Below are positions 31,815 to 31,993 of a stretch of 64,000 nucleotides of DNA, piece after piece; position 1 is the stretch's first letter, and each line of letters opens with the position of its first letter. Source of the stretch: Chitinophagaceae bacterium (GTDB taxonomy: Bacteria > Bacteroidota > Bacteroidia > Chitinophagales > Chitinophagaceae); NCBI GenBank assembly GCA_016786745.1, contig JAEUVS010000118.1, positions 1 to 64,000 on the forward strand, given 5' to 3'. A program made the position numbers and the translations under genes. Below the pieces are notes generated by a model. It was not told the DNA's origin. It saw nothing but the letters and a program-made list of their open reading frames with translations, and did not search any database.

Positions 31815-31894
31815 AACTTTAAATTTAATAAGTGAGAATTACTGAAGAAGGTTTGCTTGAATTTGAGTAGGGAGGACCCCGTGAAATCAATAGT

Positions 31895-31978
31895 TTATGC
31901 CTTGCGGCATGCCATACAGCAACAATAACGTTCCATCGCGGAAAGCATAGTTCGAGTTGATGACGTAATTAATTTCAT
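31895..31978 (-). CDS. Predicted Cys/Met-rich leader peptide upstream of metY-metX-hom
   Basis: 27 codons from ATG (31978) to TAA (31895). The peptide starts MKLITSSTRTMLSAMERY and continues CCCMACRKA, with four Cys and four Met in total. A -7-like box TACTTTCG ends 7 nt before its ATG, and metY starts 80 nt after its stop. A hairpin ATGCC-GCAA-GGCAT covers its last codons. This arrangement fits a ribosome-stalling leader that reads Cys-tRNA (or Met-tRNA) supply. Met11 or Met15 could also be the start; the Cys run would be kept. Confidence 0.6.
   Translation of the reverse strand: MKLITSSTRTMLSAMERYCCCMACRKA
31897..31910 (-). promoter_or_regulatory. Hairpin over the end of the leader ORF
   Basis: ATGCC, loop GCAA (a GNRA tetraloop), GGCAT on the minus strand. 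It overlaps codons from Ala23/Cys24 to the stop codon, so a ribosome at the Cys run would change its folding. Confidence 0.5.
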
Positions 31979-31985
31979 CGGGAAA

Positions 31986-31993
31986 CGAAAGTA
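31986..31993 (-). promoter_or_regulatory. Putative -7 box of the met operon leader
   Basis: TACTTTCG on the minus strand, one mismatch from TAnnTTTG, 7 bp before the leader ATG. No clear -33 TTTG is seen. Confidence 0.4.

Follow-up and report, generated by a model that had tools for sequence, protein, structure and literature searches.

A conserved cysteine-run leader ORF upstream of metY-metX-hom in Chitinophagaceae, with similar leaders before other sulfur genes

A short upstream ORF (uORF) with a run of Cys codons lies before the metY-metX-hom operon in the window (the whole stretch of 64,000 nucleotides analysed), and ORFs of this type were found at the same place in related genomes. Sequence comparison shows four conserved features, namely the uORF itself, the Cys run within it, its location between promoter and metY, and the terminal hairpin, and also like leaders before cysH and cysM. 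The leader is real and probably functional, and we consider it quite likely that it works in cis as a leader peptide, gauging charged cysteinyl-tRNA, perhaps methionyl-tRNA too, and setting metY-metX-hom expression. The relevant features of the window are as follows.

28175–29440, minus strand: hom, homoserine dehydrogenase with no ACT domain detected (NF004976, 303.3 bits, cut-off 205; Pfam)
29442–30491, minus strand: metX-like homoserine O-acetyltransferase (best model TIGR01392, 350.9 bits, under the 500-bit cut-off)
30492–31814, minus strand: metY, O-acetylhomoserine/O-acetylserine sulfhydrylase (TIGR01326, 673.9 bits, cut-off 495.1)
31815–31894, minus strand: spacer of 80 nt from the uORF stop to metY, without an intrinsic terminator
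31878–31982, minus strand: predicted long-range helix from folding (5' arm 31982–31968, 3' arm 31891–31878)
31895–31978, minus strand: leader ORF of 27 codons, MKLITSSTRTMLSAMERYCCCMACRKA and stop, by translation and the conservation of a Cys-run uORF among relatives
31897–31910, minus strand: hairpin ATGCC-GCAA-GGCAT over the last uORF codons, touching the stop codon, which recurs before metY
31907–31924, minus strand: putative control codons Cys19-Cys20-Cys21-Met22-Ala23-Cys24, with Cys enriched at the same place in relatives
31986–31993, minus strand: -7-like box of the Bacteroidota type, TACTTTCG, 7 nt before the uORF ATG

The genes metY, metX-like and hom abut, and family models agree with the identities given to them in an earlier sequence-only reading, the metX-like model being under its cut-off. 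Likewise, the absence of an obvious ACT domain from hom held, no ACT domain scoring at E<1 (Pfam). The 27-codon ORF, the -7-like box 7 nt upstream of it, the hairpin over its last codons and the 80-nt spacer to the metY ATG (31814) that had been described there were all recovered at the positions listed. The 27-codon peptide matched no Pfam or NCBIfam family, and a search of the window with Rfam returned nothing at the gathering score, only a sub-threshold chance match to a snoRNA. Among 5000 dinucleotide shuffles of the 330-nt region upstream of metY in the window, 61 produced an ORF in which 8 codons hold 3 or more Cys, and 1 produced an ORF with 4 or more, the real ORF having 4.

The box in the window is one base off TANNTTTG, and no clear -33 element was seen there, the combined -33/-7 promoter pattern being unmatched. 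In most relatives with a leader, TANNTTTG (0–1 mismatch) is found 5–25 nt upstream of the uORF ATG, often with TAGGGT or TAGAGT directly after it, and many leaders have TTTG 19–20 nt further upstream. Because the box is so close to the uORF ATG, the leader transcript is likely to be leaderless or nearly so. Only 47 nt lie between the uORF start and the ATG, at 32026, of a divergent 369-aa ORF (32017–33126, plus strand), which from its sequence we take to be Nif3/DUF34-like. Over this distance the two promoters have to overlap or adjoin.

Conservation across relatives was the decisive test against chance. The same-family sample consisted of 30 metY loci identified by MetY homology and further leaders taken by coordinates, giving 56 distinct, oriented leaders. 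In 27 of the 56 leaders, versus 2.05% of shuffles, an ORF that starts with ATG holds 3 or more Cys within 8 codons, and in 23 of the 56, versus 0.14% of shuffles, it holds 4 or more; 21 had no ORF with more than one Cys per 8 codons. Examples among the relatives include MTTVLHTNFPHNYAGICCICCMP and MNKQQNIYFHAPAHRSCICCMCCMP, each complete to its stop, while same-genus peptides end in INKYCSCCICCCRKANN and ECAMYCVICRKA. The N-termini are not conserved, those from the same genus included, and what is kept is the Cys cluster and its place. Related genomes thus retain a Cys-run short ORF at the same position, and a chance ORF is rejected at the family level. In L019 the leader, MTTIRHTITYSYSTACCTRLGNTAYIDRK, has just two Cys at the same position behind the same promoter type, and is possibly decaying or retuned.

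The codons themselves are informative. Over all leaders, Cys is encoded by TGT 273 times and TGC 92 times. In 51 distinct CCMP-type leaders, the codons at -7 to -3 relative to the hairpin lie outside the fixed part of the search pattern and keep TG with T or C as the third base (codon -4, 19 TGT and 17 TGC; codon -7, nine of each). Codons -2 and -1 fall within the search pattern for many rows, and conservation there is biased. The last Cys codon is nearly always TGT, which would fit a second role for it in hairpin pairing. The sequence-only reading had held that a functional leader should vary at synonymous sites, and the frame is indeed kept across TGT/TGC changes at the Cys codons.

Matches to the terminal hairpin are concentrated before metY. 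The pattern TGYTGYATGCCNNAAGGCAT occurs once per genome in 40 of 396 family genomes, in 39 cases shortly upstream of metY and in one as a chance match within a coding region, while the reversed pattern had no match in the same 396 genomes. A scan of 84,980 genomes with TGYTGYATGCCGYAAGGCAT gave 55 matches, of which 51 were before metY, three were copies of the leader at contig ends and one was a chance match in a betaproteobacterial bin. The consensus recurring before metY is ATGCC-GYAA-GGCAT, and named carriers include Terrimonas ferruginea, Lacibacter cauensis, Parafilimonas terrae and Flavisolibacter ginsengisoli. Its frame varies between genomes (CCMP followed by the stop, CMPQGI, CRKA), which indicates that the peptide and the hairpin are separate constraints. 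Among 22 leaders that were not picked by the pattern alone, both-sided changes were seen at two of four consensus pairs, a modest number. In the oriented leader of L008, the hairpin can extend to a helix of about 14 bp with the downstream sequence ATGTCCTTGCGGCA, a possible mutually exclusive alternative fold in the model.

Further targets in the genome of the window were sought via four consecutive Cys codons or CCxCC, a search that misses other Cys spacings. Restriction to short ATG-started ORFs upstream of a long ORF left few candidates, two of which stand before sulfur genes, namely cysH and a cysteine synthase of the cysKM family. The leader MIINTNTTSMIFTCCNSCCCC is found upstream of cysH, which scores above the cut-off of the phosphoadenylyl-sulfate reductase model, and MSKGIAHVNCCCCF is found upstream of the cysM-like gene. 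The cysH leader recurs in the family; Cys-run leaders before cysH sulfate-reduction genes were seen at L177/L201 (the window's genome, C86), L168, L169, L171, L173 and L174, and at L309–L311, L313 and L317–L319. Four of five cysM orthologues (at least 51% identity, the copy in the window's genome included) keep a Cys leader, and in all four a hairpin and a T-rich tract follow it. No Cys leader was found for 16 more distant cysM paralogues, and those under 40% identity lack both Cys leader and terminator. The cysM-like subtype with a Cys leader and an intrinsic terminator was observed at L205/L327/L329 (the window's genome, C94), L331, L332 and L333, and the cysM leader peptide can be as short as 14 residues. 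The hairpin ATGCC-GYAA-GGCAT is absent from the cysH and cysM leaders. Comparison of leaders across Chitinophagaceae, other sulfur genes included, as proposed in the sequence-only reading, yields Cys-run leaders before metY, cysH and a cysM-like gene. The presence of such leaders before cysH and the cysM-like gene of one genome looks like a regulon, and together with the conserved uORF of the relatives this supports the Cys leader-peptide reading.

A wider sample of 20 metY upstream regions, taken from class members that lie beyond the family or on its margin, contained a convincing Cys or Cys/Met run in nine, for example MKNNNKMCCMMMMCMCAPP. Cys/Met uORFs thus also stand before metY in further families of the order and elsewhere in the class, some of them with a textbook terminator/antiterminator pair. 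A SAM-I aptamer was found in 13 of the 20, and in eight of those 13 a Cys uORF starts 6–9 nt past the aptamer. These close fusions were observed before metY at L290, L294, L295, L296, L297, L299, L300 and L302. A gap of 6–9 nt leaves no space for a separate terminator, and the role of expression platform must therefore fall to the uORF region. In the window's family, a SAM-I with its own terminator is located 440–680 nt upstream in about half of the Cys-leader loci. The tandem of SAM-I and a separately promoted Cys leader was seen at L004, L009, L013, L017, L019, L030 and others, and SAM-I only before metY at L007, L010, L012 and L029. The window has no match to the SAM-I riboswitch (RF00162), and 30 metY loci from distant members of the phylum have no run of 3 Cys.

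How the leader might be read out is clearest in relatives. U-tract hairpins of -12 to -18 kcal/mol follow the uORF in five metY leaders (L137, L140, L142, L147 and L304), one cysH leader (L317) and the cysM leader of the window's genome, and terminators with a U-tract in related metY and cysH leaders are put at -13 to -24 kcal/mol. In several relatives, the segment right after the Cys codons is complementary to the first arm of the terminator, as in L304 (CCAAAAG/CTTTTGG), L317 (GGAGAAGG/CCTTCTCT) and L137 (AGAAAGGC/GCCTTTC), and the predicted anatomy of these three is clearly that of a classical attenuator with a mutually exclusive antiterminator. Across the family, downstream hairpins score 8.3 on average versus 4.8 in shuffles, with few convincing terminators.

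In the window leader, an intrinsic terminator (GC hairpin and U-tract) was looked for twice and not found, and two same-genus leaders show no terminator/antiterminator anatomy either. The spacer contains a weak hairpin, GGGG-TCCT-CCC at 31880–31870, with no U-tract, followed by C/T-rich, G-poor sequence, though its composition (C 0.22, G 0.10) is only modestly different from that of other gene upstreams (0.21 and 0.16). In the predicted long-range helix, CCCGaTGAAATTAAT, the 5' arm that contains the uORF start codon, pairs with ATTGATTTCACGGG, the 3' arm past the hairpin, and shares GGG with the weak spacer hairpin. At -16.6 kcal/mol it was equalled in strength in 5 of 5000 shuffles, while the overall fold z of the leader was only -1.0. 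Comparable pairings occur in some relatives (L004, L005, L103), and 5'–3' pairing in a loose leader set gave p=5e-5. Matched against mismatched arms with one leader per genus gave p=0.01 with the window and 0.06 without it, and because of the latter value we regard the helix, though strong in the window, as only suggestive elsewhere and not clearly conserved.

From the relatives with terminator/antiterminator pairs we infer a course of stalling, refolding and early termination. When Cys is short, the ribosome would stall on the Cys codons, so that neither the end hairpin nor the long-range contact between the 3' part of the leader and its 5' end could form, and RNA polymerase would continue into metY. 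With ample Cys, the ribosome would complete the uORF and depart, the RNA would close and transcription would end early. The stop signal would be the intrinsic terminator in relatives. For the window copy it is most likely Rho-dependent termination in the C/T-rich spacer, to which we give an even chance, with translational control next; Rho is favoured by the lack of a visible terminator together with the G-poor, C/T-rich composition of the spacer.

Translational attenuation, in which the position of the ribosome on the uORF would alter ribosome access to metY with no early stop to transcription, would suit a window copy that lacks a terminator. The probably near-leaderless uORF resembles the mycobacterial poly-Cys uORFs, the nearest experimental precedent, which are described in this way in PMC13236596 and PMC9031893. 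However, the uORF and metY are 80 nt apart, the A/T-rich stretch before metY is predicted to be open, so nothing visible hides the start, and the relatives with clear anatomy use terminators. We regard this alternative as unlikely, at about one chance in four.

The other alternatives fare much worse. Conservation of ATGCC-GYAA-GGCAT in different frames, and the suggested long-range pairing, could point to a structured RNA that binds a protein or metabolite, with the Cys-rich ORF as a by-product. The codons upstream of the hairpin keep TG with the third base varying between T and C, leaders with another hairpin sequence still have the Cys run (L018, L026, L137, L147), cysH and cysM have Cys runs without that hairpin, and Rfam gave no match; this explanation is largely refuted and very improbable. 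Cys-rich small peptides can bind metals, and a peptide that acts in trans, for instance as a small protein binding metals or thiols, instead of sensing through stalling might be imagined, but nothing is conserved outside the Cys run, lengths go down to 14 residues and it is the position before sulfur genes that is kept, making it marginally less probable still. Least probable of all is a chance ORF in the window's genome. Three Cys in 8 codons do arise in about 1–2% of shuffled leaders and the same-genus N-termini are unlike, but the leader type is conserved at family, order and class level and that genome has the regulon, both of which stand against chance, already refuted at family level.

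Beyond the window, we tentatively propose, at somewhat under even probability, a Cys leader-peptide regulon of the Bacteroidia that covers metYX-hom, the cysH operon and cysM. In part of the class a fused SAM-I/Cys leader would read both SAM and charged Cys-tRNA, while in the window's family the two sensors would stand in tandem or SAM-I would be missing, and the leader could close on its own start codon via the long-range helix. A conserved regulon of this kind would explain the tuning of sulfur assimilation in common soil and water bacteria and be a natural test case for attenuation in bacteria whose promoter type is particular to their phylum. The genomes offer a set in which riboswitch and leader peptide are joined, swapped or dropped upstream of a single gene.

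Proteobacteria and Actinobacteria are the groups in which amino-acid leader peptides are best known. The sequence-only reading knew of no such leader characterised in Bacteroidota, and we found no description of Cys leader peptides there in the literature searched, the coverage of which was incomplete. An article on Flavobacterium psychrophilum remarks in general terms on leader-peptide attenuation before amino-acid operons and names no cysteine leaders (PMC9723704), and short ORFs in long 5' UTRs are described in Bacteroides thetaiotaomicron, again with no cysteine leaders named (PMC7366714). The actinobacterial precedent invoked for Cys-rich uORFs on sulfur genes does exist. In 2005, Seliverstov et al. 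(PMC1262725) predicted terminator-less leader peptides with Cys runs in Actinobacteria and proposed Rho as the readout, and mycobacterial poly-Cys leaderless uORFs respond to cysteine (Canestrari et al. 2020, as relayed in PMC9031893, PMC9094748 and PMC13236596).

The SAM-I (S-box) riboswitch, RF00162, is absent from the window and controls the same gene, metY, in relatives, where it frequently forms a tandem with the Cys leader or precedes it by 6–9 nt. The classical attenuators (trp, his, ilv) have control codons for the amino acid of the pathway and a hairpin over them, as here, and the relatives share their mutually exclusive antiterminator and U-tract terminator, whereas the window copy has no terminator and no clear antiterminator. 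The actinobacterial cys-operon leaders (PMC1262725) are alike in having Cys runs near the stop codon, no obvious terminator and a proposed Rho readout, but are found before cys operons and cbs rather than metY, in a study of Actinobacteria only. The mycobacterial poly-Cys uORFs are the closest known system, although they belong to another phylum and the peptides are short and unlike. The response to Cys is experimental in mycobacteria and predicted from sequence here, and, unlike the mycobacterial uORFs, the leader here has a conserved ORF-terminal hairpin and relatives that carry intrinsic terminator/antiterminator pairs or a SAM-I aptamer. Both systems consist of a short ORF, here probably leaderless or nearly so, in which Cys codons adjoin one another before sulfur or cysteine genes, with several such leaders per genome.
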